Part shown: positions 3,589 through 47,434 of the stretch, in pieces
Position numbering within the stretch: the first letter of the stretch is position 1
Layout: each line of letters starts with the position of its first letter
Source: Candidatus Zhuqueibacterota bacterium
Lineage (GTDB): Bacteria > Zhuqueibacterota > Zhuqueibacteria > Residuimicrobiales > Krinioviventaceae
Direction: 5' to 3'
Assembly: GCA_016934825.1 (NCBI GenBank)
Contig: JAFGSB010000009.1
Span: 1 to 58,818, forward strand
DNA length: 58,818 nucleotides
Program-made: the position numbers and the translations under genes
Notes under the pieces: generated by a model
Told to the model about the DNA's origin: nothing
What the model saw: the letters and a program-made list of their open reading frames with translations, nothing else
Database searches by the model: none

Positions 3589-4026
3589 TTGGAATTAAAA
3601 ATCCTATTTCCCAAAATAAATTTTAACCGGATTACATTATCTTATTTATATTTGTATTCTGTAAGTCCCTTCAGATTGAGTTCTTTTATCGTTTGTACGC
3701 TCTGGTGTTTAATTAAAAAGGGTAACTTGATGTTCATTAGAATGAAAAAGACTTTTGATCGCCCAATTGGTTCTCTTCCCCAGGGCGTATAATATACCAT
3801 ATTTTTTGTGTATCATATTATTCAAGTAATCTTTTGTTATTGTTGTACGGACTGATGCCCATCATGATATTCGGCTATTGGATGGAGTGCCAGATTTATC
3901 AAATTAATAGCTATTACTGTAAAATAGAATGGAAAATCCACATTTCCCGCAAAGCAAAACAGGTGTCGTTTAAAAAAACGTGCAGTCCATTCCGCAAGGC
4001 GTAATGGACTGCGAAAACAATTAAAA
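3589..4026. other. Intergenic stretch between two minus-strand genes
   Basis: About 440 nt of AT-rich DNA with no convincing gene. A 67-codon open frame at 3589-3792 on the plus strand has no ribosome site and an unremarkable sequence. The only clear element is the terminator at 3972-4012. The promoter of the SGNH/TPR gene should lie here, but I could not pick a clear -35/-10 pair. Confidence 0.6.
3972..4012 (-). terminator. Rho-independent terminator after the GH109-like gene
   Basis: A perfect 10-bp stem (3982-3991 with 4003-4012, arm GCAGTCCATT) has an 11-nt loop. Read on the minus strand it is followed three nucleotides later by a run of seven T (3972-3978). It begins 14 nt after the stop codon of the minus-strand gene at 4027-5370, so it ends that transcript. 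Confidence 0.85.
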
Positions 4027-5370
4027 TCAATATTCGTCGGTGAGACCGAATATCGGTTTGTTAGTCAACCAATCGCCTCTGGTAAAGTCCGGGAATTCAA
4101 CAGGCGCACTGCCGGTAGCGATAGATTGCTCGGAAAGCGGCGTCACTACGATCCATGCTGCGGTATCGTAAACATCAATCGGGGTCGGAATTTTTCTTTT
4201 AACACATTCCACAAAAGCGCGGCTCTTTAAAAAGCCTGCGCCGCCATGGCCGCCCCGAACACCTTCGGTCGTGAATTTTTTCCATAACGGGTGTTCCCAT
4301 TCGGGCAGATAATCTTCTAACTTTTCCCATTGATGCGACGGGCTTTTACCTTCTATATAAATCGCATTGGTCAGGGCACGGTGTTCCATCCATACTCCCT
4401 TTGTTCCCTGCACAACATAGTTGTTGGAATACGGCCGCGGTGAATTGGTATCATGAAAAATTACAATTGTTTCACCTCTCTGACATTTAATAACTGAGGT
4501 AACGATATCACCAATGGCCCAGTTTAACTTTGCATTCGGATGATCTTCACCGCCCACACGTACAATATGTTCATGCAAACTTCTCGCCTTGGAAGCGGTC
4601 GCGGTCAGGGTGACCATTCTATTGCCCCTGTTATCATCCAGGCAGTTGGCTATGGGTCCGAGTCCGTGTGTGGGATATAAATCCCCGTTTCTTTTTAGGG
4701 AATGAGCTGTCCGCCACCGTGCTTCACCCTGTGCTCCGGGGCCAAATTCCGCTCCCGGTCTGAATTTGACGCCCAGAAGATCGTGGCGATATCCACATTC
4801 TGTATGTGTGATTTCGCCAAACAAACCCTCTCTTACCATTTTGAGCACTGCCATATTATTGCGGTCATAGCAATGGTTCTCCAGCATCATACACGGCATA
4901 CCAGATTCTTCGGAAGCATCGATCAACTCCCAGCATTCCTCGATTGATGAGGCGCCCCACACTTCAGGCGCGCAGTACTTGCCGGATTTCATTGTCGCTA
5001 CGGCCATGGGTGTGTGCCATAACCAGGGTGTGGCAATGAAAACGCCGTCCAGGTCATCACGGGCGACGAGGTTGAGGTAATCTTCTTCACCGTTTGAATA
5101 ACCGGTGGGTTTTTTCCTGCCGGATTCTTCTACCAGATTTGTCGCTCTGAGCAGGGCTTCCTTATTGATATCACAGATTGCCGGAACCTCGACATCTTCC
5201 ATTGACAAGCACATTCTCAACAATCCGGTTCCCTGACCTCCAACGCCAATAAAACCTAACCTTACTTTACGATCATCTTTACCTCTTAAAATATTTGGGG
5301 CCATTGCCAACGCAACCCCGGCGGCAGCGCCGCTTTTAACAAATTGTCTACGATTTAAATCACTGCTCAT
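4027..5370 (-). CDS. GH109-like Gfo/Idh/MocA family protein, Tat-exported
   Basis: 447 aa. A twin-arginine signal (NRRQFVK then a hydrophobic Ala-rich run) predicts export. A Rossmann domain (GFIGVGGQGTG, about residues 39-49) is followed by a Gfo/Idh C-terminal domain. The usual EKP motif is not present: the corresponding stretch reads CAPEVWG. Together with MMLENHCYD (about 160) and YPTHGLGP (about 230), this is the pattern I associate with glycoside hydrolase family 109, NAD-dependent alpha-N-acetylgalactosaminidases that act by a redox mechanism. The length also fits that family. It stands alone between terminators at 5444-5498 and 3972-4012, with GGAGG before the ATG. An exported GalNAc-releasing enzyme would suit the AgaS-type amino-sugar genes at 14.5 kb. 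If it is not GH109, it is a related oxidoreductase. Confidence 0.75.
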   Translation of the reverse strand: MSSDLNRRQFVKSGAAAGVALAMAPNILRGKDDRKVRLGFIGVGGQGTGLLRMCLSMEDVEVPAICDINKEALLRATNLVEESGRKKPTGYSNGEEDYLNLVARDDLDGVFIATPWLWHTPMAVATMKSGKYCAPEVWGASSIEECWELIDASEESGMPCMMLENHCYDRNNMAVLKMVREGLFGEITHTECGYRHDLLGVKFRPGAEFGPGAQGEARWRTAHSLKRNGDLYPTHGLGPIANCLDDNRGNRMVTLTATASKARSLHEHIVRVGGEDHPNAKLNWAIGDIVTSVIKCQRGETIVIFHDTNSPRPYSNNYVVQGTKGVWMEHRALTNAIYIEGKSPSHQWEKLEDYLPEWEHPLWKKFTTEGVRGGHGGAGFLKSRAFVECVKRKIPTPIDVYDTAAWIVVTPLSEQSIATGSAPVEFPDFTRGDWLTNKPIFGLTDEY

Positions 5371-5443
5371 TTATAAATCCTCCAGGTAAATATTTATTAT
5401 TCATTATTCAGAAATACTCATTAAATTCTTTTGATTCTGTGTG

Positions 5444-5498
5444 AAAAAAATTAAGTTCGACGCATTTGTTATTAATGTTGATTAAATGCGTCGAACTT
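5444..5498 (-). terminator. Strong terminator after the PorV-like gene
   Basis: A perfect 15-bp stem (5453-5467 with 5484-5498, arm AAGTTCGACGCATTT) has a 16-nt loop. On the minus strand it is followed by a T-rich tail (run of seven at 5444-5450). It closes the receptor operon and isolates the GH109-like gene. Confidence 0.9.
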
Positions 5499-5548
5499 GT
5501 TATAGATTAACAACCAGAAGATTGTCGCTATTTGTTAATCAGCTTGTG

Positions 5549-6532
5549 CTAAAACGCCAGCCCGAAGGACATTCTACTGACATTATCAAATATACCAAAA
5601 TCAGAATAGGTGTAACCTATTTTAATGGTTAGTCCGCCAATATCGCTGTTTAATCCAAGACCGGCAGTTAATCCTTCTTCATCGTAATTAAATTTATAAC
5701 CGGCCCGGAGTGCAATCATATTCATAAGCGTATATTCGGCTCCTACATGTACTCTTTCCGTGTAATCCCGCGGATGTACAGCATCGATAGCAATAAGTAA
5801 AGGATTACTATGTTCTCCTAACAGGTCCATTACATCCATAGCAAAACCAATTGTGAATGTAAGTGGTAATTGAAAACCTGTTTGTTGATATTTAAACTCG
5901 GGAGAAAAATTGCGAACACTCATGCCAAACCTGAAAGATTTAAATCCAGGATAAAACATTGTCCCAAAATCAAATGCGACTCCGGAAACTTTGTTCTCAA
6001 CTGTTGAACCATCCGGGAAAAGATTGCTTCCCAGATGCTGGGCTGCATATTTTACTTGCCCGCCAACAGTGAATTTATTCGTCAATGATCTGGCATAAGA
6101 TATACCAATGGCATAAGCGCCAACATCGAGATTTCCTGTTTCTTCGAAACCCTGCTCCGTTGAAGCGACTCGCGTACCAATAATGTCACCATAATCTGAA
6201 GTGACAAAGCTTATACCAAAATTACCTACGTTGCCAAAATTTTTAACAATACCGCCGGAATTATAGGATATATCTGCAATCCATTGTGTTCGACAAGCAA
6301 TAAAATCAACATTGGATTCCATATATGCAATGCCGGCAGGATTATAAAACATAGCATCTGCATCTTCACCTACCATCATGAATGCTCCACCCATAGCTGC
6401 AGCACGAGTACTTACATCGATTTCCAAAAATTGAAGACCGGTTTGCGCAAGTTTCTTGATGGCCGAATGGGCAGGCATTAAGAAAATAGTAGTGAGAAAA
6501 ACAAGTATTAAAAATAAACTCAATTTTTTCAT
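5549..6532 (-). CDS. PorV/PorQ-family outer-membrane beta-barrel protein
   Basis: 327 aa. Start placed at 6532 because GGAGGT lies 8 nt upstream; the frame stays open further upstream but without a site. A signal peptide (MKKLSLFLILVFL...) is followed by a short helical part and the family block FLEIDVSTRAAAMGGAF with FYNPAGIA (about residues 35-70). The rest alternates as beta strands and ends in a terminal aromatic (FGLAF). PorV carries type IX secretion cargo to the surface anchoring machinery. Related barrels are numerous in FCB bacteria and many have no assigned role. It directly follows (53 nt) a large sorting-domain protein and a TonB receptor, so it may serve that cargo. It could equally be a FadL-like or generic barrel. 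Confidence 0.8.
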   Translation of the reverse strand: MKKLSLFLILVFLTTIFLMPAHSAIKKLAQTGLQFLEIDVSTRAAAMGGAFMMVGEDADAMFYNPAGIAYMESNVDFIACRTQWIADISYNSGGIVKNFGNVGNFGISFVTSDYGDIIGTRVASTEQGFEETGNLDVGAYAIGISYARSLTNKFTVGGQVKYAAQHLGSNLFPDGSTVENKVSGVAFDFGTMFYPGFKSFRFGMSVRNFSPEFKYQQTGFQLPLTFTIGFAMDVMDLLGEHSNPLLIAIDAVHPRDYTERVHVGAEYTLMNMIALRAGYKFNYDEEGLTAGLGLNSDIGGLTIKIGYTYSDFGIFDNVSRMSFGLAF

Positions 6533-6585
6533 TTTAGAATACCTCCGTTTAGACCAAATTTTAATAATGCAAAGCAAATTAATTC

Positions 6586-8718
6586 TTACCTAACTATAAG
6601 AAATTTTACGTTAATGCTTTCGCCATCGGGAGTTTCAATATGAGCAATATAAATCCCGCTGACGACAATTTGGCCGGTTTCTGTGGTCGAATGCTCTAAT
6701 AACACATTACCCCATGCCTCGTCTCCTGAGCCATTGGTATGTTCAAGCGTTTTGATCAAACTACCGTTTTCACTATAAATTTTGATCGTACATACGGGTG
6801 GTAAATCCATAAACATGATCTTATCAGGTTCGCCTGTGAACTGAAGTTCCTGGGCGCCGACATTAAATGGATTCGGTACCACTCTAATAGATGATAGAGT
6901 TCCCGCAGATCTGGTAAGATGCGCTCCCACGGTAGTACGGTTTACATATTCACCGCTTTCGAGGCTCGAACCGACGTCTCTAACATCAGCGGTATTTTCC
7001 GAACCGTCATCAAAAGCAGAAACATAATAGAAATATGCAATACCACGATCGGCATTGGTATCATCATAACTGTGTGTAAGAGCATTGGAGGTACCCTGTC
7101 CGCATTCATATATTTTGGTCCATTTGCCCACTACGACGCCGCCTTCTTCATTGTAATCGGGGGCGCCGGTAGCCCGATAAACCTTATAACCGGCAAAATC
7201 GGAAGCTGCCTCAGATTCGGTACCCCAAGAAATCGTGATTTTGTCCGGCAATGACATGACGTCAACTGACGGAGCGGGCGGCGGGACAGGTACATTGTAA
7301 TTATTGCGTACGGCCCATTGCGCTGCCCAGGCGTTAGCAAACAGCGAATCTTTACCTGTACAAATCCAGCGATCTTTATTGCGATCGTTATCGGTTGGGG
7401 CAAGATCCGGAAAATCTTTCAACACCGGGTAGTAATCTTCAAGGTCATCAGCTCCATCCCAGGTGCAGGTTCCGGCCAGCCATTCTTTACCTACTTTCCA
7501 GGCCACCTCTGGCGATATAGTTCCTACCACAGTCGCCCAGACAATTCTGAATGAATCACCCGGGTTCAGGGTGTAGGGTCCGGTGGAGGAATAAGTGCAT
7601 GTACGCCAGTTAAACCAGGGGAAGTCCCTGACAAATTTAACTCCACGCTCGTCCAATCTCACGCTGTGGTGCCCCGGATATGTACCTTCCATTTCAGGGG
7701 TTCCATCGTAACCCAAAAAGCCGTTTTTCATTACTTCATAAAGAAGAGCATGATCGGACGGGCCATTCAATTCGGCTCGCAGTTTAATCCACGGCAATTC
7801 GGCAGTCTGAAATGCGGTCATTTGCGGTTGAGCAGGATTATCCGTCGCATCGTCCGGTGATGTGTCGGCGTGAAGGATTGCCTCACCGATATATTGCGGA
7901 CGGCGGAGAAATCCATTTGATCTTGTGTTTCCAAAATCATCTTCATCAGCGCCTCGGCTCCGTTGCGGATATGCATACATTATCCGTAGAGAGTCACCCG
8001 GGAATTCTCCGTAAGAACTATTCCATGGTCTGCTTGCGCTCGGCAATATCCAATTATTGGCCCTTTGAAAATAGACATCTTTCAGTACCTGGTTTGGAAG
8101 TTCAATTTCCGCATCAGCATCTATATTTCCTGTGTTTTCAAATGTCCAATCGTATAAGATATAGTCGTCATGATGTTTCTGACTCCAGCCAAAAACTCTC
8201 TGATGAATTGTAATACCCATGGAGGTATTGATCCAGGATTCCACCATAACATCCGCAGTGCCGGGGATTTTATCCGGGGCAACTTCATCGCCTTCCATAG
8301 GGAACGGTTCATCCAGTCTGACGCCGTCTACAGAGACAGTTGGCGGTTGATTTCTATAATACCTGTGGATATATATCCCGTCCGCATCCGGTATTGGGAT
8401 AGTATTAAGTACTTCATCAGAGTTGCCATGGGGCGCTCCCGATATTTTAACGGGCCAAAGATTACCCTTATCATCGGTCCATTCTTTTGTTCCCAATTGC
8501 CAGCCGGCATGATCGATGCCGGAACGGGTAAAGGCATCAAAGTAATAATAAGCAAAGGTGCCTTCCCCTGCAGATTCACTTTGATCGCCAGAATCTATAA
8601 CTTTGGTCTGATATTTTCCTGCTCGTATCCACTTTAATACACCCGCATATGAATGCTGATACATAAATAGGCAAAATAAAAGACTCAAAAGCCCTATTAA
8701 ACAAGAAAATTTACGCAT
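6586..8718 (-). CDS. Large secreted protein with fibronectin-III and FlgD-like sorting domain
   Basis: 710 aa. A signal peptide (about residues 1-25) is followed by a large domain of about 450 residues that I do not recognise, rich in Trp, Asp and Gly, as in surface glycan-binding proteins. Next come a fibronectin type III-like domain (about 485-600, with ISWGTESEAASDFAGYKVYR) and a C-terminal FlgD-like/type IX sorting domain (about 610-710, VVPNPFN, ending FLIVR). It lies 33 nt after the TonB receptor, in the position SusD holds in Bacteroidota, so a surface ligand-binding role is a reasonable inference. Nothing in the N-terminal part resembles SusD. AAAGGAG precedes the ATG. Confidence 0.7.
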   Translation of the reverse strand: MRKFSCLIGLLSLLFCLFMYQHSYAGVLKWIRAGKYQTKVIDSGDQSESAGEGTFAYYYFDAFTRSGIDHAGWQLGTKEWTDDKGNLWPVKISGAPHGNSDEVLNTIPIPDADGIYIHRYYRNQPPTVSVDGVRLDEPFPMEGDEVAPDKIPGTADVMVESWINTSMGITIHQRVFGWSQKHHDDYILYDWTFENTGNIDADAEIELPNQVLKDVYFQRANNWILPSASRPWNSSYGEFPGDSLRIMYAYPQRSRGADEDDFGNTRSNGFLRRPQYIGEAILHADTSPDDATDNPAQPQMTAFQTAELPWIKLRAELNGPSDHALLYEVMKNGFLGYDGTPEMEGTYPGHHSVRLDERGVKFVRDFPWFNWRTCTYSSTGPYTLNPGDSFRIVWATVVGTISPEVAWKVGKEWLAGTCTWDGADDLEDYYPVLKDFPDLAPTDNDRNKDRWICTGKDSLFANAWAAQWAVRNNYNVPVPPPAPSVDVMSLPDKITISWGTESEAASDFAGYKVYRATGAPDYNEEGGVVVGKWTKIYECGQGTSNALTHSYDDTNADRGIAYFYYVSAFDDGSENTADVRDVGSSLESGEYVNRTTVGAHLTRSAGTLSSIRVVPNPFNVGAQELQFTGEPDKIMFMDLPPVCTIKIYSENGSLIKTLEHTNGSGDEAWGNVLLEHSTTETGQIVVSGIYIAHIETPDGESINVKFLIVR

Positions 8719-8751
8719 AATTATGCTCCTTTGTTTTTTGTTACTTTCTGT

Positions 8752-11700
8752 TTAAAAATCGAATTTAATGCCCAAAAAGATGCTTCTTGGATTTAAATAG
8801 GTAAGAAACTCTCTATTCGGCATATCAATATAGGGCTTATCATCGCTTTTTACATCACCCGGTTTATCATCTCCGCCTGTATAACCTTGTGCTTTATATT
8901 CCGGGGCATCGTATTGTGGCAGATGTAAAGATTCCAGATAATTCAGTCTATCTATATCATCTGCAAAGCCTTGTTCACACATGTATTTCGTATTAAACAG
9001 ATTTTTGATATCAACAAACAGTTCGAAATTCGAAATTCCAAATCGAACTAATTTACTTAATCTCAAATCAAAATTATATTGACCTTTCCATTGCAGGTTT
9101 TGTTTCAATTGATATGTTTCCAATGGATCCCAAGTTTCATATTTACCCGCTTTCCAGCTAAACAGCCAACTCATATGCATGTTGCCGAACGGTTGAATGC
9201 CGGCCAATGTTGGTCCCCATGTATCCGGGGTGTGGAGCTGAACATTTACACGAGTAAAAGGCCGAGCAATAGGTCTCTCCTGATAAGGATTCTGCAAACC
9301 TTCAATCCTCTGCAGTCTTTGATCCTGATAATAGTGCTCGCGGCCAATAAAACCGGAGGTAGTTACAATATAATTATAATTAATCCAGCCGGTGATCCAT
9401 TGACCAAATCGTTTATCGATTCTCATTTCAAAGCCTCTGATGTCGGCATAGTTGTTATTTTCAACTGTGCCGTAGTCGACGCTGCCGTCATAATTTGTGT
9501 ATTGGATCTCTCCGGTCTGATCGCTCACGTCTTTATAATATCCGGCCAAATGAAGCAAAAACAAATCTGCGATATTGTACTCCAGGCCTAATTCATAAGC
9601 GATTGTTTTAGGCAAAAGTGCAGACGGGTTGCCAAGGAATCTAACGCCCTCGGATGATTTCCCGTACTCAATCTCGTACATCTGCGTTGATCGAGGCATT
9701 GAATAAAAATGGCCGTAGTTAAAATAAAGTTTGGCATCTTCTGTAATTGGATGAGAAACTCCCAATCTCGGGCTTAATTTAATATGACCCTCAGCAGGTT
9801 GTGTAGGCGCTTCTTTTGTGAATAATTCTTTATACTGCTTCTGGAAATACTTGGAGTATCTATCCACGTCATACCAGTCCGTATTGGGTTCGTTATAATC
9901 CATTCTCAAACCGATATTAGCGATCAATCCTTCAAACTCGAGTTTATCTTGTGCATAAACTCCCAAACGATAGGGGAATGCAGTCCAATCGAGATAGTAG
10001 CTGTCACTCGGCAGATACATGGATACACCCGCATAATTTGAATGAATATCATCGTAGTTATATTCAAAACCAATTTTAACCTGATTATATTTATTGACTT
10101 GGCTGGTTAAATCAAATTTGGCGCTGAATGAATTCACCTCTGACCAGTCCCGGGCTCCGGCGCCAATAGAAGCGAGCAACTGTCCATCCTGCATTGAATA
10201 TTCATTTAAAATATCAAAGCCGTAAGGAGTTTCATCCACACCAACATTGCCAAAATATCTAATAATAGTATTATCACGCAACTTGTCGGGTCCTGCCGCG
10301 AAATTTTTAACGCGAGTGTTCGATACTCTGACACTGTAAAAGGTATTGGGACTCAGAACGTGGTCAAAAGAAATACCCAGCATGGAACGATAAACGTCAA
10401 ATGGCGTTAAAGAACTGGGCCAGTAGAGATTGGCTCCGCCACGATGATCATAAGCATAGCTTGTGGCTAAAGGACTCCAAAGGATATCATCCCCGCTTGT
10501 CAGGTAGTCATTGAGGGACGTACCGGTCATATTTCGCGATTGTGTATTTATCTCTCCATACAATCCTTCGACGGATAATTTCATCGATTGCGATAAACGG
10601 GAAGTAAACTTTAATAATGCATTCTGTTCCAGGTAGTAATCTCTGTTGGTTGGAAGGGCAAACATTTCTCCCATGTTTCTGTATGAGGCAAAAAAGCTTG
10701 CATTACCCAAATATTTACCGATAACAGGAACCGGTCCGCCAAAGCTTGCATCTACGTTCCAATCCGGTTTTTTGCCGTATTCGCTTTCTGTCTGTCCAAG
10801 CGCCTCACTGCCTTCAGCCCGGTGCTGCCACATAAACAGGTCCCGTGCTTGTTCAGGGGTCATATCGTTGGAAGGATCCTCGTCTCCTAACAGGTTTTCT
10901 GAAACAGAGTTCCAGCCGACAAATTCAGGATACTGTAGTTGAGTTGCCTCATCCCAGGAACCGTTTTTCGTGCCAACCCAGCAAACCGCCGGATCGAGGT
11001 AAGAACGTAAATAATAATTGTTGTGATCAAAGAGAGACTGGCCGCTATGTTTCAGGTGTGCTGGACTCAGACGCATATCAAGTGATCCATGATATGATTC
11101 TTCTCCACTTTTTGTAATAACATTAATAAGGCCTGAACGTATATTACCGTATTCGGCGTTGAAGCCTCCTTTGATAATGCTAACTTCTTTAACAGCGCTG
11201 AGATTAACCATCATAACCGGTTTATTCGCCCTGTTGTCAACAACCATTAATCCATCCATCATAAACCCTGTCTGGTCTAAACCACCACCTCTGATGATAT
11301 CTCCTTCAACACCAGCCTGCAGGTTCACGAATTCCAGAACGTCTTGAACAAAAGGAATGGCATGAATTTCCGGAGCCTCAGCAACAATCTGGCTCGCGGA
11401 AACGTCCATAGGAACGATTTCTCGTTCTGCTACAACTGTTACCTCCGCACCCTGGATTGTAGTTTCCTTCAATTCGAAATCAACCGGGGTTGTGTGGTCC
11501 ACGCTCACAATAACTTCGGTTTTATTCAGAATTTCATACCCCATCATTGATGCTGAAACTGTATATCTACCAGGAGGAATGTTCACGATAAAATATTGAC
11601 CGGCTACATCGGTAGCCGCTCCCATTGTTGTTCCGGCAAGAACAACATTTACTCCTGGTAATGCTTCACCAGTGTTAGCATCTTTAATAGTACCTGATAT

Positions 11701-32438: not shown

Positions 32439-33401
32439 ATGTTAAATCGAGTAGCAATCCTTGACACGGGTTACGATTCATATGATTATGAACAGGAATT
32501 ATTTACCGACGCCGGTTATCGCCTGGAGATATTCCCGGGTAAAAGGCATGACCGGGAGGGAAAAAAATTATTCGCGCGTGACGCCGTCGGATTATTTGTG
32601 CGCTGGACTGAAATTAACGATGATTTTTTGGGGGCGGCGCTTCAAGTAAAAGCGATTGTCAGGTACGGCGTCGGTTATGATAATATTGACCTGAATGCCG
32701 CGACCCGGCACAACGTTAGTGTGGCGAACGTACAGGGTTATGCCAATCACTCCGTTTCCGATCATGCCATCGCGATGATGTATACCTGTGCGCGAGCGTT
32801 ACCCGCCGGCCAAAAGTCGCTTAAAACGAAATTTGCCGCCCCGCCTATAAAACAAATATTTGAATTTCATGATAAAACGCTGGGCATTATCGGGCTGGGC
32901 CGGATAGGCGGCGCTTTATGCCGAAAAGTTTGCCCGCTTTTTAAAACCGTTTTGGCAACCGATCCGTATATCCCGGATGAACGGTTTGTAAAATTAGGAG
33001 CGGAAAAGACCGGGTTGGATGATCTGCTTCGCCGGAGTGATGTTATTTCAATTCATTGCAACCTGACCGAAGAAACGACAAATCTTATTCACGCGGCAAG
33101 AATAAACCTGATGCAAAAGAAACCGATCCTCATTAACACGTCGCGCGGACCGGTTTTAAACGAAGATGATCTGTTTACCGCGCTTCAGGCAGGGAAATTT
33201 CACAGTATCGGTATGGATGTGTTTTGTGACGAACCGCCGCTGGCAAACCGGGATGCGTTAATATCGCACCCGCGGGTCATTGCCACCGGGCATTATGCCT
33301 GGTATTCGACAAACGCGTCCGTTGAGTTGCAAAAACGTGCGGCAAATAATTTGTTGTCCATGTTAGACGGTCATACACCGGAAGATTGTTTGAATCCATA
33401 A
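32439..33401 (+). CDS. D-isomer-specific 2-hydroxyacid dehydrogenase
   Basis: 320 aa, phosphoglycerate-dehydrogenase/CtBP-like. NAD-binding GIIGLGRIGG (about residue 150), the catalytic Arg in NTSRGPV (about 232), Glu in DVFCDEPP (about 263) and His in TGHYAWYS (about 286). RYGVGYDNID (about 72) is typical. It interconverts a 2-ketoacid and a D-2-hydroxyacid. It is cytosolic, with AAAGGA upstream. It may act on sugar-acid products or keto acids from the neighbouring enzymes. Confidence 0.85.
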   Translation: MLNRVAILDTGYDSYDYEQELFTDAGYRLEIFPGKRHDREGKKLFARDAVGLFVRWTEINDDFLGAALQVKAIVRYGVGYDNIDLNAATRHNVSVANVQGYANHSVSDHAIAMMYTCARALPAGQKSLKTKFAAPPIKQIFEFHDKTLGIIGLGRIGGALCRKVCPLFKTVLATDPYIPDERFVKLGAEKTGLDDLLRRSDVISIHCNLTEETTNLIHAARINLMQKKPILINTSRGPVLNEDDLFTALQAGKFHSIGMDVFCDEPPLANRDALISHPRVIATGHYAWYSTNASVELQKRAANNLLSMLDGHTPEDCLNP

Positions 33402-33444: not shown

Positions 33445-36087
33445 ATGCAGGACAAAGATTTTATATTTCAACCGGTTACCATTCAAAATGTTCACTTTCG
33501 TAATCCTTTTTATGTGGCCTCCGGACCGACAACAAGAAATTTAAAGCAGTTGTTAAAAGCTGAAGAGTGCGGGTGGGGCGGCGCCAGTATAAAATTAACG
33601 ATCGGACCGGAACCTTATATAAACCGGGAACCCCGTTATGGATGGTTCAAAGATCAGGGTGTACTGGCATTTACAACCGAAAAACGGTTAAAACCGGATG
33701 AAGGGCTTTCGCTTGTTGAAAAAGCGCGGAAACATACTTCCGACCTGGTCATTATGGCAAATATAACATATGCCGGCGACGAGGATGTTAAAGAAGGATG
33801 GGGTGGTCTTGCAAAGCAATTCGAAAGCGCCGGGGCGCATATTATAGAATTAAATATGTGCTGTCCGAATATGTCGTATAACCTGGAAATATCAAATAAA
33901 GGTGACAGCGGCACCCCGAAAACAGGGGCAAGTTTGGGCCAGGATGCCGAAGCCGTTAGTCATATTACCAGGATTGTAAAAGAAAGTGTGAATATACCGG
34001 TATTTGTCAAGTTAACGCCCGAAGGCGGACGTATTGCCCAGGTCGCAAACGCCTGTTTTGAAGCGGGAGCAACCGCTGTGGGCGGGACGGCAAACCGCCT
34101 GGCCATACCGCCGTTCGATATATATAATCCCGGTAAATCCCCGTTTTACCTGCAGGACGAACTGAGTTTATCCTGCTTTGCCAGTGAATTTATCAAACCC
34201 CTGGCATTGAGGGATGTCTTTGAAATAAGAAAACTGGTGGGCGACGGCCCGATTATAACGGCCACGGGAGGAATTCGAAATTTTCAAGATGTTGTGCAAA
34301 TGACTTTTATGGGAGCGAATTTTTACGGAATATGCGCCGAAACCATTTTAAGCGGCTTTGGATTTTTAAAAGATGTTATTCGTGACCTGCGCTCCTATTT
34401 TGATGATATGAACTATTCATCATTTGATGATTTCAGGGGATCAATTGTCAATGAGTTGCGGTCTGCGCAAACAGTAACTCTGAGTAAAGGATACGCGCGG
34501 GTTAAGGACAGGTCCCTTTCTGCACCCTGTGTGGTGGCGTGTCCAAACTATGTACCCGCCCAGGGGTATGTGATGGCCGTCGCGAAAAAGGATTTTAAAA
34601 AAGCGTATAATCTTATCACCGCCTCGGGACCTTTTCAATCGGTCTGCGCTTACGTATGTACGCATCCCTGCGAATCGGTTTGTGTTCGGGGAAACATAGA
34701 TGAAGCGATTAAAATAAAAGAGATTAAACGTTTTGTTCTGGAATATGCCGGTGAAAAGAACTGGCAGCCGGAGTTGAATCCCGCACCCGGGAAACCGGAA
34801 AAGGTCGCCGTGATCGGGGCCGGCCCGGCCGGACTTTCGGCGGCTTTTTATCTTAAACTGGCCGGATATGAAGTCGTTGTATTCGAAAAACAATCCAAAG
34901 CGGGAGGATTGTTGAGGTCCGGCATTCCGCGGTACCGGTTGCCTCTGAAAGTGGTTGACGAGGAAATTAAAGTAATCGAAAATCTGGGCGTAAAAATAAA
35001 GACGAATAAAGAGTTGTTTAAGGATTTTACGATTGCTGATTTAAAGAGTGACGGTTTCGGGACCGTCATTCTGGCAATCGGCGCGCACAAAGGCATCCCT
35101 TTACAGGTATCCGGCGAGCTTTCGCAGGGCAATTTTACCGCGCTTAATTTTCTTGACCGGGTGTCCCGTGGTGAAAAACCCGATATCGGTAATAAAGTTG
35201 TTGTTGTCGGCGGCGGCTTCAGCGCGATTGACGCGGCCCGAACCTGTAAAAGGATGGGGGCCGAAGAAGTTTATATCGCCTATCGCCGCACCAGAGATGA
35301 AATGCCCGCAAGTCCTGAGGATGTTATGGAAGCGGAAGAAGAAGGCGTGAAAATTATGTACCTGGTTTCGCCTGAAGAAATTATTGTCAGGGACAATAAA
35401 GTGGCGGCCATTCGCCTTGTTAATTACGTTTTGGGTGAAATGGACGATTCCGATAGAAGAAAGCCGGTCGAGGTTGCGGGAACCGAATTTATTTTGCAAG
35501 CGGATACGGTTATTTCCGCACTCGGACAAAAAATTGATATTCAAAACGGCGAACTTACAGAGATCATGTCGAACGGCGCTATCAGGTGTGATGTCGATAC
35601 CGGTAAAACCGGATTGGATTATCTTTTTGTCGCGGGCGACGCGGCATCAGAGCCTGAAGACATTATTTCCGCGATAGCGAGCGGGAAAAAAGTTGCTTTT
35701 TCGGTTGATAAATATTTGTCTGCTGAAAATGCCGTACTGATTGGAACACCTCAATTATCTTCGATAGAAAAAACGTGGGTGCTGGAATCGAAAGGCAATA
35801 CAGAAAGAAAATCCGCCGTTAAAAATTATGTACGGAGTGCCGGATCCCGGGTTAAAGATTTTCAGGAATACACAAGAACCTTTACGGAAGAAGAGGCCGT
35901 AGCCGAAGCGGGACGCTGTTTAAACTGCGGATGCGGGGACGGCTGCATGCAGTGCATGGAGCTTTGTAATTCATTTGCTATTTCAAATGTGGACGGCAAG
36001 CCTTTTATAAACAAAGAAGAATGCGCAGGCTGCGGCATTTGTGTGTGGCGATGTCCAAATCATAATATTGAAATGATCCGTGATTAA
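33445..36087 (+). CDS. PreA-PreT-type flavo-iron-sulfur fusion protein (dihydropyrimidine dehydrogenase-like)
   Basis: 880 aa. Order read from the sequence: FMN TIM barrel of DHODH/PreA type (about residues 1-320; NMCCPN, VKLTPEG, TATGGIRNFQDV), then a GltD/PreT-type Cys-rich domain (about 360-410; CVVACPN, YVCTHPCESVC), FAD domain (AVIGAGPAGLSAA, about 455), NADPH domain (VVVVGGGFSAIDAARTC, about 588) and C-terminal ferredoxin clusters (CLNCGCGDGC, CAGCGICVWRCP). Mammalian dihydropyrimidine dehydrogenase has the same parts with the FMN barrel after the FAD/NADPH part, so this is the swapped order. The catalytic Cys of that enzyme is not conserved: ACGQD there corresponds to SLGQD here. It may reduce or oxidise a cyclic substrate other than uracil. 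Next to a YtcJ-type amidohydrolase. Confidence 0.8.
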   Translation: MQDKDFIFQPVTIQNVHFRNPFYVASGPTTRNLKQLLKAEECGWGGASIKLTIGPEPYINREPRYGWFKDQGVLAFTTEKRLKPDEGLSLVEKARKHTSDLVIMANITYAGDEDVKEGWGGLAKQFESAGAHIIELNMCCPNMSYNLEISNKGDSGTPKTGASLGQDAEAVSHITRIVKESVNIPVFVKLTPEGGRIAQVANACFEAGATAVGGTANRLAIPPFDIYNPGKSPFYLQDELSLSCFASEFIKPLALRDVFEIRKLVGDGPIITATGGIRNFQDVVQMTFMGANFYGICAETILSGFGFLKDVIRDLRSYFDDMNYSSFDDFRGSIVNELRSAQTVTLSKGYARVKDRSLSAPCVVACPNYVPAQGYVMAVAKKDFKKAYNLITASGPFQSVCAYVCTHPCESVCVRGNIDEAIKIKEIKRFVLEYAGEKNWQPELNPAPGKPEKVAVIGAGPAGLSAAFYLKLAGYEVVVFEKQSKAGGLLRSGIPRYRLPLKVVDEEIKVIENLGVKIKTNKELFKDFTIADLKSDGFGTVILAIGAHKGIPLQVSGELSQGNFTALNFLDRVSRGEKPDIGNKVVVVGGGFSAIDAARTCKRMGAEEVYIAYRRTRDEMPASPEDVMEAEEEGVKIMYLVSPEEIIVRDNKVAAIRLVNYVLGEMDDSDRRKPVEVAGTEFILQADTVISALGQKIDIQNGELTEIMSNGAIRCDVDTGKTGLDYLFVAGDAASEPEDIISAIASGKKVAFSVDKYLSAENAVLIGTPQLSSIEKTWVLESKGNTERKSAVKNYVRSAGSRVKDFQEYTRTFTEEEAVAEAGRCLNCGCGDGCMQCMELCNSFAISNVDGKPFINKEECAGCGICVWRCPNHNIEMIRD

Positions 36088-36147: not shown

Positions 36148-37905
36148 ATGTTTAAAGTTTTAATTGATAAACGTATCAGGCATGTTCGATTTTTACTCTT
36201 TATGTTTACTTTGGGTTTGATTTCAAAAGTTTTTGGCGTCGACTTGAATCCTGATATCATAATGTACAACGGCAGGATACTGACTGTCGATGAATCTTTT
36301 TCCATTGCCGGGGCTGTCGCCATCAAAAATGACAGAATCCTTGCCGTTGGCTCGAATGCGGATATTATAACATTGGCCGGAAATTCAACGATCAAAATGG
36401 ATTTACATGGGAAAACGGTCATTCCCGGTCTGATTGACGCGCATCTTCATCCCGAAGACGCGTCGCTAAGCGAACTGGTTGAAGAAATACCGGATGTCCA
36501 TAACCGGAAAGAACTTTTGTCCTGGATCAAAACCCAGGCTGCTGTCAAGAAAAAAGACGAATGGATTATTCATCCGAAATTTTTCCCGACCCGGCTGCAG
36601 GAAATGACCTGGCCGCAATTGAAAGAACTGGATGCGGCGGCCCCGGATAACCCCGTCTTTTTAAACGGCAGTTATGGCGGTATGATCAATACCGCCGCCA
36701 TGCGGATCTCGGATATAACAGTGGAAACCAAACATCCCGGCATTTTTAAAAACCCTGATACAGGACAGCCGACGGGATTGATAAATGCTTCCGCTTTTTC
36801 GCTTTTAAAGATAAATAAATCCGCCCAATACACTTATGAACAACGGCTCGATGCTATGGAAAAAATGATCGCCCGCTATAATTCTGTCGGTATTACCGGA
36901 ATTTGTTCCGGGGCCGGTAATCCGGAAAACATGAGGATGTATTTTGATTTAAAAAAAAGCAAAAGACTCACCGCGCGAATCCTGCAGAATATCATATTGC
37001 CGCTTGATATCGATTCCTCCGCGGAAGAGATCGAAGAAAAACTGAAAAGTTTGGGTTATTGTACCGGATTTGGAGACGAATGGGTCAGGGTCGGTGCTTT
37101 AAAAGTATGGATTGACGGCGGGATCCTGACCGGCACCGCTTATCTCAGGGAACCGTGGGGTGAAAAGGGTAAAGAGATTTATGGCATCGACGATACATCT
37201 TATCGTGGTGTGTTATTGATCAGTAAAAAAGCGTTAATTACGATCGGGTCTGTCGCCAATAAACTGGGTTGGAAATTTACAGCCCACTGCACCGGCGGCG
37301 GCGGTGTTGATTTGATGCTTGACGCTTTTGAGGAGGTGAACAGAATCCGTCCTATAAGAGACAGGCGGTTTTCCATCATCCACGGCAATTTTTTTACGCC
37401 GGAATCCATCGAAAGAATGAAAAAACTTGGCGTTTACGCGGACATGCAGCCGGCCTGGTTCTATAAGGACGCGGACGCGATGAGTTATGTGCTTGGTGAA
37501 AAAAGAATCAGAACTTTTCATCCCTATAAATCTTTGTTTGACGCCGGTGTTATAATCAATTGCGGTTCTGACCACATGGTAAAATTTGATTCTTACGCCG
37601 CGATCAATCCGTATAATCCTTTTTTGGCCATGTGGTCAATCATTACACGAAAGACGGAGATGGGATCTGTAATTATTCCCGGCGAGGCGATAACCAGGGA
37701 GCGGGCGTTAAAAATGTACACCGTCAACAACGCAAGGGCTTCTTTCGAGGAGGACATTAAAGGTTCCATAGAAGCGGGCAAACTTGCCGACCTGGTTGTC
37801 CTTTCCGATGATTTTTTGCACTGCGAGGTGGATAAGATCAAAACAATTCAGGCGTTGCTGACTATGGTGGGTGGAAAAATCGTTTATAAATCGGGTTCAT
37901 TTTAG
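36148..37905 (+). CDS. YtcJ-type amidohydrolase-3, probably exported
   Basis: 585 aa. A hydrophobic stretch (about residues 13-28, LLFMFTLGLISKVFG) serves as a signal sequence or anchor. Amidohydrolase core: IPGLIDAHLHPED (about 93), LKVWIDGGILTG (about 317), TAHCTGGGGVD, FSIIHGNFF and NCGSDHMVKF (about 470). The HxH, Lys-like, two His and Asp ligands are all visible. It hydrolyses amide or related bonds; the substrate is unknown. Placed directly behind the PreA-PreT fusion, it recalls the reductase plus cyclic-amide-hydrolase pair of pyrimidine breakdown, but it is a different family and likely outside the cytoplasm, so this is only an analogy. Confidence 0.75.
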   Translation: MFKVLIDKRIRHVRFLLFMFTLGLISKVFGVDLNPDIIMYNGRILTVDESFSIAGAVAIKNDRILAVGSNADIITLAGNSTIKMDLHGKTVIPGLIDAHLHPEDASLSELVEEIPDVHNRKELLSWIKTQAAVKKKDEWIIHPKFFPTRLQEMTWPQLKELDAAAPDNPVFLNGSYGGMINTAAMRISDITVETKHPGIFKNPDTGQPTGLINASAFSLLKINKSAQYTYEQRLDAMEKMIARYNSVGITGICSGAGNPENMRMYFDLKKSKRLTARILQNIILPLDIDSSAEEIEEKLKSLGYCTGFGDEWVRVGALKVWIDGGILTGTAYLREPWGEKGKEIYGIDDTSYRGVLLISKKALITIGSVANKLGWKFTAHCTGGGGVDLMLDAFEEVNRIRPIRDRRFSIIHGNFFTPESIERMKKLGVYADMQPAWFYKDADAMSYVLGEKRIRTFHPYKSLFDAGVIINCGSDHMVKFDSYAAINPYNPFLAMWSIITRKTEMGSVIIPGEAITRERALKMYTVNNARASFEEDIKGSIEAGKLADLVVLSDDFLHCEVDKIKTIQALLTMVGGKIVYKSGSF

Positions 37906-37939: not shown

Positions 37940-38992
37940 ATGGATAAATTAAAAGTTGGAATTGTCGGATCAAAATTTGCCGCGATGCTGCATGCGGAAT
38001 CATATAAAAGATGCCCGGATGTCGTGATAGCGTCCGTGGCCGCTGTTGATAACCTGAACGAATTCGCCGGGACTTATCAAATACCCAATCGTTACGACGA
38101 TTTCCGTGAGATGTTTGCCGGAGAAAAGTTGGATATTGTCAGTGTTTGCGTACCGAATTTTTTGCATAAGGATGTCGTCATCGCCGCCGCTGACGCCGGA
38201 ATAAAATCAATTATATGCGAAAAGCCTCTGGCCACATCTGTTGAAGACGGACTTGCCATGATAAAAATTTGCCGTGAGAAGCAGGTCAGGTTAATGTACG
38301 CCGAGGACTGGATATTCGCCCCGGCGCTGATCCGGGCCAAAGAGATAGTCAAAGAGGGCGGAATTGGCGATATTTTGTATGTGAAAGCAAAGGAAACCCA
38401 TAACGGGTCTCATTCCGTGTTTGCCCAGAAAAAGGAATATTGCGGCGGCGGGGCCATGATTCATTTGGGAATACATCCGATAGGATTTATGCCCTGGTTT
38501 TTAGAAAGCGATATCGTTCAGGTAATGGCTATGATAACAGAAGGCGCGGGCAATAATCTTGTGCATAAAGATTACACCGGCGAGGACTGGGCCGCGGCAT
38601 TGGTCAAATTTGAGCAAGGAGCGCGGGGGTTTGTGGAAGGTAATTATATTACCTGCGGAGGTATGGATGACAAAGTAGAGATATACGGGACCGAAGGTAA
38701 TATCCATGTAGACCTGACAATGGGTTCTCCTCTTACGGTGTACAGCCGTCCCGGTTACGGGTACGCCCTGGAAAAAACGGATTTTACTCACGGTTGGACA
38801 AAACCGGCCGTCGATGAGTTTATGTCACTGGGCTATATAAATGAAATAACTCATTTTGTAAATTGCACCCGTAACAACCTCGAACCGCAAAAAGGCACAA
38901 CCGGCGAAGACGGGCTCAAAGCTCTGTCCGTAACTTTTGCCGTTTATGAATCTGCTGAAAAAGGACAGGTTGTTAAAATATCAAAACAATAA
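37940..38992 (+). CDS. Gfo/Idh/MocA family oxidoreductase (cytosolic)
   Basis: 350 aa from the ATG at 37940, 34 nt after the previous stop; an upstream ATG in frame overlaps the amidohydrolase and was rejected. Rossmann GIVGSKFAAMLH, EKPLATSVEDG (about residue 95, the EKP motif), GGGAMIHLGIHPIGF (about 172). There is no signal peptide. It oxidises or reduces a sugar or inositol using NAD(P). The C-terminal end is an ordinary Gfo/Idh domain with IYGTEGNIHVDLT. Confidence 0.85.
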   Translation: MDKLKVGIVGSKFAAMLHAESYKRCPDVVIASVAAVDNLNEFAGTYQIPNRYDDFREMFAGEKLDIVSVCVPNFLHKDVVIAAADAGIKSIICEKPLATSVEDGLAMIKICREKQVRLMYAEDWIFAPALIRAKEIVKEGGIGDILYVKAKETHNGSHSVFAQKKEYCGGGAMIHLGIHPIGFMPWFLESDIVQVMAMITEGAGNNLVHKDYTGEDWAAALVKFEQGARGFVEGNYITCGGMDDKVEIYGTEGNIHVDLTMGSPLTVYSRPGYGYALEKTDFTHGWTKPAVDEFMSLGYINEITHFVNCTRNNLEPQKGTTGEDGLKALSVTFAVYESAEKGQVVKISKQ

Positions 38993-39028
38993 TCGGTGTT
39001 AAATTGTAATTTTAATACAGGCAGTATA

Positions 39029-41092
39029 ATGAAAATAAATTCATATCGTTCATTTTTAATAATTTTTGTTTGGTGTATTCTGGCTTCGTACAAAGTCGCC
39101 GTGGCCGGCAGCGGGACAGAGAACCTATCCGTATTGAATTTGAATCCTGACCGGCCCAAATCTGAAGAAATGATGCGGGGTCACCTGCGCCGTCTTGTTC
39201 ATGACGCGCTTGACCGTCGGCTTGATAATTATGAGGCTTTAAAAACCGAACAACAGATCCGGGCCTACCAAAAGGATATGCGACAGTTCTTTCTTCAACA
39301 GTTGGATTTACCTGAACGAACCCCGCTTAATGCTTCTATCGTGAGTCAAAAAGCATATAACGACTATCGTCTGGAAAAGATCATCTATGAAAGCCAGCCC
39401 GGATTTTATGTCGCGGCGCTGTTTTACCTGCCAATGAAAGAACCGCCATATCCCGGAGTTTTATTGCTCTGCGGTCATGACGAACTTGGAAAAGCCGCGT
39501 ACCAGGAAATAGCAATTTTACTGGTAAAAAACGGTATGGCCGTGCTTTGCCCTGATCCTATCGGCCAGGGTGAACGAAAACAGATTCTGAATGAAAATAA
39601 CCGGGGAGAATACCGTACAACGACAGAACATATGATTGAGGGAATTGCGCCTGTCCTGTTGGGTAAAAGTCTTGCTACCTATATGATCTGGGATGGTATA
39701 CGCGGGATTGATTATCTCGTTTCCCGACCGGAAATTGATCCGTCCCGTATCGGTTGTACGGGCATTTCCGGCGGCGGAAACCGAACCAGTTATCTTATGG
39801 CGCTGGATGACCGGATCTTATGTGCGGCTCCGGGATGTTTCATTACGACAACGCGCAGGAAAAACGAAAGTCCGGGACCGGGAGACGCGGAACAAAACAT
39901 ACACGGGCAAATTGCTTACGGCATGGATTTGCCGGACTATATGATTTTGCGGGCGCCGGTCCCAACGCTTGTCCTTTCGGCCACGCGGGACTTTGTGCCG
40001 ATAGAGGGAACATGGGAAGCATTCCGCCAGGCCAAACGTGTTTATACGCGCCTGGAATATGCGGAACGGGTTGATATCATCGAAACCGATGAGTTGCATG
40101 GTTTTTCCACGCAGCTTCGTGTCGGCGCCGTGCGATGGATGCGCCGATGGTTGTTAAAAGTTGACGACGCGATAACGGAAACCGAGTTACCCCTCGAGGC
40201 TCCCGAAGAACTTGAATGTACACCCGGCGGACAGGTGTTGTTATTGCCCGGCGCCAGAAGCGTTTTCGATTTGAACATAAATAAAGAAAAGCATCTAACT
40301 GATTTACGTAATGGAACCTTGTCGCAAATGAAACCTGAAGAAATACGAAAAAAAATACGTGATGTAACAGGCATCCGAAAACCGGAAGATCTGCCTAATG
40401 TAAAAATTGAGGAAAGCGGGATCATTCAGCGCAAGGGGTACAATATTAAGAAACTTGTCCTTAGCTGGGATACCGATATAACGTTACCCGCACTTTTATT
40501 CAGACCTGAAAAACCGGTTGGGGAACGGTATCTTTATTTACATGGTAAAGGGAAGCACGTTGACGCCGGTCCCGGCGGCCCGATTGAAAAACTGGTTCTG
40601 GCCGGGAATATTGTTATGGCCGTCGATTTGCGGGGGATCGGTGAAACCGGAACAACCCCCTGGCGGTACCAGGACGCCATAGAGTTCACCGGAAATGATG
40701 CGGCTGAATTTTTTATTGCTTATATGTTGGGTATATCATTTTTAGGTATGAGAGCTGAGGATATACTCGTTTCCGCCAGGTATCTTGCCGAACAGGTTAC
40801 AAGCACAAAACAGCGCGACGCGCATATAATCGCCATTGGCGAAGCCGGTCCCCCGGCGCTTCACATTATGGCGCTGGAACCGGGGCTCTTTGATACATTG
40901 ATCCTGCAAAGGTCACTCTTTTCATGGGAAAATGTCGTTCAAACACCCGTTACGAAGGGTATGTTGAACAACGTGGTACATGGAGCCTTGAAAGCATATG
41001 ATTTGCCGGACCTCATTTCTTTGATTGGTAAAGATCGGGTATTTATTAGAAAACCAATCAATGCAAAGGGAATGGATTATTTATCCCCCTAG
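39029..41092 (+). CDS. Exported tandem alpha/beta-hydrolase (acetyl-xylan-esterase-like)
   Basis: 687 aa from the ATG at 39029; a GTG at 38996 is an alternative. Signal peptide (about residues 1-25). First alpha/beta-hydrolase domain: LLLCGHDE (about 140), CTGISGGGNRTS (Ser nucleophile, about 245), DFVPIEGTWEAF (Asp) and DELHGFS (His). A second hydrolase-like domain (about 460-687; LYLHGKGKHVDAG, AVDLRGIGETG) has IGEAGPP where the nucleophile motif should be, so it probably lacks activity. Related secreted proteins remove acetyl or methyl esters from polysaccharides. Last gene of the plus-strand run starting at 29.9 kb. Confidence 0.75.
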   Translation: MKINSYRSFLIIFVWCILASYKVAVAGSGTENLSVLNLNPDRPKSEEMMRGHLRRLVHDALDRRLDNYEALKTEQQIRAYQKDMRQFFLQQLDLPERTPLNASIVSQKAYNDYRLEKIIYESQPGFYVAALFYLPMKEPPYPGVLLLCGHDELGKAAYQEIAILLVKNGMAVLCPDPIGQGERKQILNENNRGEYRTTTEHMIEGIAPVLLGKSLATYMIWDGIRGIDYLVSRPEIDPSRIGCTGISGGGNRTSYLMALDDRILCAAPGCFITTTRRKNESPGPGDAEQNIHGQIAYGMDLPDYMILRAPVPTLVLSATRDFVPIEGTWEAFRQAKRVYTRLEYAERVDIIETDELHGFSTQLRVGAVRWMRRWLLKVDDAITETELPLEAPEELECTPGGQVLLLPGARSVFDLNINKEKHLTDLRNGTLSQMKPEEIRKKIRDVTGIRKPEDLPNVKIEESGIIQRKGYNIKKLVLSWDTDITLPALLFRPEKPVGERYLYLHGKGKHVDAGPGGPIEKLVLAGNIVMAVDLRGIGETGTTPWRYQDAIEFTGNDAAEFFIAYMLGISFLGMRAEDILVSARYLAEQVTSTKQRDAHIIAIGEAGPPALHIMALEPGLFDTLILQRSLFSWENVVQTPVTKGMLNNVVHGALKAYDLPDLISLIGKDRVFIRKPINAKGMDYLSP

Positions 41093-46180: not shown

Positions 46181-47434
46181 TTGGTCCCGATAAAATTTGG
46201 TACAAATATTCTAGAACTCAATATTCCCGAAAAGAATCTTGTGTTTAATTTGAGTTCCAATGACTATCCCCATCCTAAAGATGCAAAGGATGATATCAGA
46301 CAATCACTTCACAATCCGGTCGGGTGTCGGCGCTTGCGGGATATTGTTCATAAAGATGCAACCGTAGTGATATTGGGAGATGACCGGACACGATTAACCC
46401 CACAGCACCTGATCGTTCCTGTTGTATTGGAAGAATTATATAACGCGGGCTTGCAGCCAAATCAGATAAAATTGATCATTGCCTGCGGAACCCACCGTCA
46501 AATGATGGAACGCGAAATTGAAGAGAAATACGGTCGGGAATTAATGAACGAAATTGAGATTAAAAATCACAATTTTTTAGATGTGAATAATCTGGCCAAC
46601 AAAGGGGTAACTCGCCGGGGTACAAGAATTTTAGTAAATAAAGAGTTTCTGCAAGCGGACATTCGTATTGGGATCGGTAGCGTTCTGCCTCATCATCCGA
46701 CAGGCTGGAGCGGTGGAGCCAAAATTCTTTTACCCGGCATCGCCGGTGAGGAAACCACCTGTGACATGCATCTATTGGGCGCTACCGAACAGCAATTGGG
46801 TAAAATCGATACTCCTTGCCGGAAAGAGATGGAAGATTTTGCCGAAAACGTCGGTTTGCATTTTATTGTAAATGTTATTTTGGATGAAAAAGGAAATATT
46901 TTAAAATCTATTGCCGGTCATTTTATTAAAGCGCACCGGGAAGCTGTTAAATGGGGCATTAAGGTGTTTGGCGTAGAGTTTCGTGAACAAGCGGAGTTGA
47001 CGCTCAGCAGCCCGTACCCCATGGACTACGATTTAACTCAGAGTGATAAGGGATTGTTTTCGGCAGAGATAGTGACAAAAAAGGGCGGCGAAATCATCCT
47101 GTTATCCCCATGCCTGGAGGGAATCGCGCCGACTCATGGTGAAGAAATTGCAAAACTGGCCGGATATGACGATGATACTTTATGGAACATGTTGAAAAAG
47201 AATCAGATTAAGGATCGATTCGCGGCATCTGAAAACATGTATTTAAACCATATCAAGAAAAATTTTAAAGCTACATTAATGATGGATCCGGTTCTGTGTA
47301 ATATTATGGGATTTTATTATTTAAATAGTCAGGATTTAAACAAATACCTCAATTTTAGACTTGATATGAATAAAAATCTTAAAATTGGTATCATAAATCA
47401 GAGCACAGAAGTTTTACCAATACTTGCAAAGTAA
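46181..47434 (+). CDS. larA: LarA-family nickel-pincer-dependent hydroxyacid racemase/epimerase
   Basis: 417 aa with a TTG start and GAGGA 9 nt upstream. LarA family: DDRTRLTP (about residue 69), GTHR (about 103) and PHHPTGWSGGAK (about 169-180). The His and Lys in the last block are ten residues apart, and a further His comes sixteen residues on, the same spacing as H174, K184 and H200 of Lactobacillus plantarum LarA, whose Lys carries the nickel-pincer cofactor. The family includes lactate, malate and sugar-acid epimerases. LarB, LarC and LarE, needed to make the cofactor, are not in the window. The Nramp-like gene follows closely. Confidence 0.85.
   Translation: MVPIKFGTNILELNIPEKNLVFNLSSNDYPHPKDAKDDIRQSLHNPVGCRRLRDIVHKDATVVILGDDRTRLTPQHLIVPVVLEELYNAGLQPNQIKLIIACGTHRQMMEREIEEKYGRELMNEIEIKNHNFLDVNNLANKGVTRRGTRILVNKEFLQADIRIGIGSVLPHHPTGWSGGAKILLPGIAGEETTCDMHLLGATEQQLGKIDTPCRKEMEDFAENVGLHFIVNVILDEKGNILKSIAGHFIKAHREAVKWGIKVFGVEFREQAELTLSSPYPMDYDLTQSDKGLFSAEIVTKKGGEIILLSPCLEGIAPTHGEEIAKLAGYDDDTLWNMLKKNQIKDRFAASENMYLNHIKKNFKATLMMDPVLCNIMGFYYLNSQDLNKYLNFRLDMNKNLKIGIINQSTEVLPILAK

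Follow-up and report, generated by a model that had tools for sequence, protein, structure and literature searches.

We describe an 880-amino-acid protein that resembles the uracil-degrading enzyme dihydropyrimidine dehydrogenase (DPD) but probably acts on a sugar- or cyclitol-derived compound instead of uracil, since its gene travels with sugar-processing dehydrogenases. Judged by its sequence, it is best seen as a non-PreA barrel and a non-PreT GltD-like protein that fused independently, rather than as a reordered DPD. The protein is encoded in the stretch of DNA analyzed here (58,818 nucleotides, hereafter the window) by a single open reading frame without interruption (33445–36087, forward strand), which domain matches and the occurrence of the same fusion elsewhere mark as a single-chain FMN / Fe-S / FAD-NAD(P)H oxidoreductase.

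Pfam matches along the protein (DHO_dh at residues 11–317, Fer4_20 at 359–439, Pyr_redox_2 at 453–747, and Fer4 at 854–875) give the order FMN barrel, GltD-like module with Fe-S, FAD, and NAD(P)H parts, and 8-Fe ferredoxin tail. This is as the first-pass annotation had read it, and its further claim that the order is opposite to that of mammalian DPD is also borne out: There, the GltD-like part occupies residues 2–524, the FMN domain 525–847, and the Fe-S domain 848–1025 (PMC8097209). In the fusion, the FMN alpha/beta barrel (residues 10–334; 33472–34446) is like the FMN domains of DHOD and DPD, matching DPD 534–836 by phmmer. The Fe-S part of the GltD-like module (residues 359–439; 34519–34761) carries C362, C366, C401, C405, C409, and C413 without the RCLxC that usually precedes them, and is followed by the FAD and NAD(P)H domains (residues 453–760; 34801–35724), with GAGPAG at 458, GGGFSA at 589, and YRRTR at 613. 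A displaced RCLNCGC motif (C825, C828, and C830; 35917–35934), seen in both the motif scan and the family alignment, leads into the C-terminal 8-Fe ferredoxin-like domain (C830, C834, C837, C841, C860, C863, C866, and C870; 35932–36069). All of these features lie on the forward strand. Across the family, the nucleotide-binding glycine motifs and the six Fe-S domain cysteines are all conserved, as are the ten tail cysteines in every row long enough to include them. The arginine pair R614 and R615 is also conserved, which by analogy would suggest NADPH as the donor. Single-sequence structure prediction of the fusion gave a mean pLDDT of 34.7 and was not used for inference.

The same domain order is kept in nine other genomes, recovered by the kind of genome survey that the first-pass annotation had proposed, and is therefore no effect of chance or assembly. 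These genomes belong to two further phylum-level groups, and their fusions are 47%–63% identical to that of the window. No other match spanning both halves turned up in 82 genomes of the phylum to which the window belongs, and a genome of the same genus lacks the fusion. A 69%-identical barrel lies inside an 894-aa frame in G135, a single genome in a sample of 290, most of them from other groups; a second fusion genome, G290, is from the same small phylum as G135. In the third phylum, the fusion occurs in seven of 294 sampled genomes with 47%–49% identity overall, and three further barrel copies (in G573, G604, and G539) have their own PreA-like 8-Fe tail. Not all copies are whole: Those of G290, G543, G682, and G538 run into contig ends, and that of G561 is broken by a frame change. 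This distribution tentatively suggests gene transfer between phyla. GC content at the window locus shows no sharp break, with a mild rise to 45%–47%, and composition therefore speaks neither for nor against transfer. The matches listed by tblastn against plasmids were all PreA-like barrels with at most 31% identity, and a contig scan with poorly conserved peptides of the fusion returned just a short GltD-type match.

Relatives of the barrel alone were also seen in the third phylum. At L095 (G539:C99, 9007–11330), a bare barrel of ∼325 aa, without Fe-S or GltD part, stands divergent beside the ortholog of the Gfo/Idh/MocA dehydrogenase described below. The barrels with their own 8-Fe tail, at L089, L090, and L092 (G573, G539, and G604, respectively), have LacI-type regulators upstream on the opposite strand, directly adjacent in L089 and L090; near those of L089 and L092 lies a distant relative of the AXE1-like hydrolase of the window (38996–41092).

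Searches of curated libraries placed the fusion under the cut-off of every NCBIfam model listed. The best listed match, to the PRK12771 GltD-like model (NF009410), covers residues 355–879 with 478 bits against a cut-off of 516. No solved structure matches both halves in FMN-GltD order; DPD matches both, with the order reversed. A search of the literature found no report of a matching architecture or pathway. The fusion family is thus without counterpart in the curated libraries or papers searched, and in it the DPD layout is re-invented.

Trees of the two halves bear on how this layout arose. In the barrel tree, the fusion family together with a barrel from G255 splits from all PreA/DPD rows (support 97/95, and SH-aLRT 98 with more rows). 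In the tree of the GltD halves, the fusions form one clade (SH-aLRT 100) and, with other GltD-like proteins, split from the PreT rows (97/95; SH-aLRT 100), in a comparison set that was drawn from matches of the fusion itself and is biased to that extent. The Fe-S motif bears out the second split directly. In the fusion family, the motif scan finds APCxxxCP at the start of the GltD module and RCLNCGC ∼460 residues further on; in PreT, as in the canonical single-chain DPD of a bacterium (L051), CLxCxDAPCxxxCP lies near the N terminus. The displaced RCLxC arrangement is also found in several non-PreT GltD-like proteins, and the GltD module of 9BOV/8OH5 aligns likewise. With the barrel outside PreA/DPD, the GltD half outside PreT, and the Fe-S motif displaced, DPD and the fusion are therefore independent assemblies of similar modules, and descent as a single-chain PreA-PreT fusion, which the first-pass annotation had put forward, is ruled out.

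The locus of the G255 barrel deserves description in its own right. This 405-aa barrel with its own ferredoxin tail (L052, G255:C89:1000-13000, 2480–9670), among the nearest outside barrels, has as neighbors a UbiD decarboxylase, an aldehyde:ferredoxin oxidoreductase, and genes like those of pyridoxamine-pyruvate transaminase and FHMPC dehydrogenase, the last two below cut-off. The cluster possibly serves an anaerobic breakdown of vitamin B6 or the pyridine ring with a DPD-like ring reductase.

The first-pass annotation had also taken the active-site cysteine to be altered, because the ACGQD of DPD faces SLGQD in the fusion (residues 163–167; 33931–33945). In the numbered alignment, the cysteine of ACGQD is C684, opposite L164, and the general-acid site lies elsewhere: The residue that differs from wild type in the C671-variant PDB entries (1H7X/7M31) is the cysteine of LNLSCPHG, and C671 aligns with C140 of the fusion (NMCCPN; 33862–33864), which is unchanged in 14 of the 14 family members collected. 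Cys140 is thus the equivalent of C671, the proton donor of DPD. A cysteine at the general-acid position is what that annotation had itself named in advance as refuting its claim, and the variant entries and the alignment numbering together rule out loss of the residue. Further identities in the alignment pair K574 of DPD with K50, K709 with K189, and N668 with N137, the two lysines being FMN-binding in DPD; C140, K50, K189, N137, and the ten C-terminal cysteines are conserved in the family wherever these columns are present. In DPD, C671 is catalytically essential and the C671A enzyme is inactive (reviewed in PMC8097209).

Same modules, same catalytic cysteine, and NAD(P)H entry would all be expected of a true dihydropyrimidine dehydrogenase (PydA/PreAT) with shuffled domains that reduces uracil or thymine, with the neighboring amidohydrolase as dihydropyrimidinase; 29 bacterial PydA candidates are reported to have Pyr_redox_2 in the same polypeptide (PMC7332683). 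The sequence of the barrel argues otherwise. Against the PreA model (NF006183), the fusion barrels score 160–187 bits, well short of the equivalog cut-off of 335, whereas the genuine bacterial single-chain DPD at L051 scores 508; both halves fall outside PreA and PreT in the trees; and where PreA/DPD has the pocket motifs F-x-N-I-E and I-N-T, the fusion shows F-T-[TAS]-E and A-N-R, although moving the alignment by one residue could retain the Glu and one of the Asn. The amidohydrolase, an exported Amidohydro_3 protein (36148–37905, forward strand), does adjoin the fusion in lineage A (G000, G135, and G290), the only lineage in which its ortholog occurs with the fusion (one in G135, two contig-end fragments in G290). 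It scores 24 bits for D-hydantoinase, however, and none of the seven third-phylum genomes with the fusion has an ortholog; any relatives there are 31%–33% identical. The gene is therefore outside the core partner set, and a dihydropyrimidinase-like role for it was rejected on these grounds. Moreover, the constant partner of the fusion is a Gfo/Idh/MocA dehydrogenase, not a dihydropyrimidinase or ureidopropionase. We consider a shuffled DPD very improbable. The idea of the first-pass annotation that the protein reduces some other substrate, through an electron chain contained in its single polypeptide, stands in part: The PreA scores, the apparent difference in pocket motifs, and the Gfo/Idh/MocA partner favor it, but the supposed loss of the cysteine, on which it had leaned, is refuted.

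L051 itself (G174:C6, 4684–7302) has the canonical GltD-FMN-Fd order, and a reading frame at 8962–10338 looks hydantoinase-like by eye; the locus is a useful contrast to the enzyme of the window.

The gene of the Gfo/Idh/MocA dehydrogenase (37940–38992, forward strand), assigned by domain match, has orthologs 51%–70% identical in nine of the ten fusion genomes, the exception being G290, which is 70% complete. The 70%-identical ortholog of G135 adjoins the fusion there, in a local gene order and with strands that differ from those of the window. Of the 294 genomes of the third phylum, nine have the ortholog (E < 1e-95), and these include all seven with the fusion, a co-occurrence expected by chance at ∼1e-12 (hypergeometric, with shared ancestry ignored). 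The two that have the dehydrogenase without the fusion are G539, with the bare barrel beside it, and G556, with no barrel match in a genome 86% complete. A D-2-hydroxyacid dehydrogenase family gene, recognized by domain match, lies 43 bp upstream of the fusion (32439–33401, forward strand), and the same family stands beside the fusion or its Gfo/Idh/MocA partner in three other genomes; the likeness is at family level, as the enzyme of the window shares only 35%–37% identity with those of G543, G747, and G474. The Gfo/Idh/MocA and 2-hydroxyacid dehydrogenase genes are adjacent in G543; in G474, the former is followed by the latter and by a creatininase-family gene. The cleanest operon is that of G747 (L086, 253–7863), where six co-directional genes with short gaps encode the Gfo/Idh/MocA dehydrogenase, the fusion, a 2-hydroxyacid dehydrogenase, a PfkB kinase, a KDPG-like aldolase, and an SDR. 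The last three were classified via their G543 homologs (74%–85% identical): The SDR scores above cut-off for the D-mannonate oxidoreductase subfamily, and the kinase, which is like KDG or 5-dehydro-2-deoxygluconate kinases, stays below the cut-offs of both. Kinase, aldolase, and SDR genes like those of G747 are not adjacent in the lineage of the window.

Other neighbors of the fusion vary, from the exported amidohydrolase of lineage A to an MttB-like gene in G494, where an MttB-family methyltransferase gene follows 26 bp after the Gfo/Idh/MocA ortholog (L106, G494:C251, 5254–7772). Within the same run of sugar-catabolism genes, the window encodes a lactate-racemase-like protein (46181–47434) with a LarA N-terminal domain and a C-terminal domain below the Pfam cut-off.

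The constant Gfo/Idh/MocA partner, the frequent D-2-hydroxyacid dehydrogenase, and the one operon with KDG-type kinase, KDPG-like aldolase, and mannonate-type SDR point to a sugar-acid or cyclitol substrate, and we count the LacI-type regulators beside the barrel-only relatives in favor of this reading. The substrate is probably not a pyrimidine; the likeliest class is that of keto compounds derived from sugar acids or cyclitols, a class that is weakly determined because the Gfo/Idh/MocA and 2-hydroxyacid dehydrogenase families are broad. On balance we lean toward a soluble single-chain NAD(P)H-linked FMN/FAD/Fe-S flavoenzyme that acts on such a compound, at a C-C bond beside the carbonyl.

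We infer the cofactor content, electron path, direction, and substrate class of this enzyme as follows. It would hold FMN, FAD, and about four [4Fe-4S] clusters; we tentatively assign the eight cysteines of the ferredoxin-like tail to ferredoxin clusters, and C825/C828 to a cluster of Fer4_20. NAD(P)H would deliver electrons to the FAD of the GltD-like module, and from there they would cross the two clusters of that module, one of them probably completed by the displaced C825/C828, and then both clusters of the C-terminal ferredoxin domain on their way to the FMN of the N-terminal barrel. This last transfer would probably cross a dimer interface, as in DPD, whose electron path, like its essential C671, has been reviewed (PMC8097209). 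FMN would then give a hydride, and Cys140 a proton, to reduce an activated C=C bond beside a carbonyl, for example, in an enone left by oxidation then elimination; the reverse dehydrogenation would be possible as well.

Indeed, the enzyme might run as a dehydrogenase, oxidizing a saturated sugar-acid or cyclitol compound and passing the electrons to NAD(P)+ or, at the C-terminal clusters, to ferredoxin, in the manner of class 1B DHOD. In class 1 DHOD, the cysteine of the SCPN motif acts as a base, class 1B enzymes having the same active-site cysteine position in that role, and the fusion barrels also match the class 1B profiles, below cut-off (NF005574, 101–110 bits against 269; TIGR01037, 93–103 bits against 270); the partners, too, are catabolic dehydrogenases. 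However, the GltD-like module is described as passing reducing equivalents from NAD(P)H to a partner (PMC8097209). Direction is not readable from sequence, and we hold this oxidative role to be unlikely, while still giving it some weight. That the enzyme serves an anaerobic pathway of ring reduction, with a nitrogen heterocycle or an aromatic ring as its substrate instead of a carbohydrate-derived compound, appears improbable to us. Among the nearest outside barrels, that of G255 (L052) is clustered with UbiD, AOR, and vitamin-B6-catabolism-like enzymes, and the amidohydrolase or creatininase neighbors could open a cyclic amide, but the constant partner is the Gfo/Idh/MocA dehydrogenase and the cleanest operon has genes of KDG-kinase, KDPG-aldolase, and mannonate-SDR type.

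Returning to the reduction of a carbohydrate-derived keto compound, we tentatively put forward a broader and rather less certain proposal: The fusions may be an undescribed family, a second assembly of DPD-like chemistry out of different modules, which, with its dedicated Gfo/Idh/MocA dehydrogenase, might constitute a new redox route of carbohydrate breakdown (oxidize, eliminate, reduce the enone) spread between phyla by gene transfer. DPD is the textbook complex Fe-S flavoenzyme made of ready-made modules, and an independent assembly of its layout is a natural experiment that separates the features needed for electron transfer from those that set the substrate. The tight link between the fusion and the Gfo/Idh/MocA dehydrogenase also makes the two enzymes a candidate for an unassigned step of carbohydrate catabolism in uncultured bacteria.

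Four known systems invite comparison. Mammalian DPD (PDB 1GT8/1H7X; PydA) likewise joins in one chain a DHOD-like FMN barrel with catalytic cysteine, a GltD-like module, and an 8-Fe ferredoxin domain, with probably a common electron path; but its order is GltD-FMN-Fd where that of the fusion is FMN-GltD-Fd, the barrel of the fusion is distant from its own, both halves come from other clades, the Fe-S motif is displaced toward the C terminus, gene neighbors differ, and pocket motifs appear to differ. The E. coli-type PreAT, or bacterial two-subunit PydA, has the same modules, and its PreA barrel the cysteine of SCPH/SCPN. Unlike the fusion, it is encoded by two genes, with the ferredoxin domain on the FMN subunit and CLxCxDAPCxxxCP in PreT; the fusion is well under the PreA cut-off. 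The clostridial ferredoxin-dependent PydAc (PMC7332683) also combines an FMN barrel with ferredoxin domains and is DPD-like with a changed domain composition, but it has no FAD or NAD(P)H domains and lies in a pyrimidine gene cluster. The PRK12771-type GltD-like proteins (NF009410) and the GltD module of 9BOV/8OH5 align end to end with residues 355–879, including the displaced RCLxCGC and the C-terminal clusters, whereas they have other partners and no N-terminal FMN barrel.
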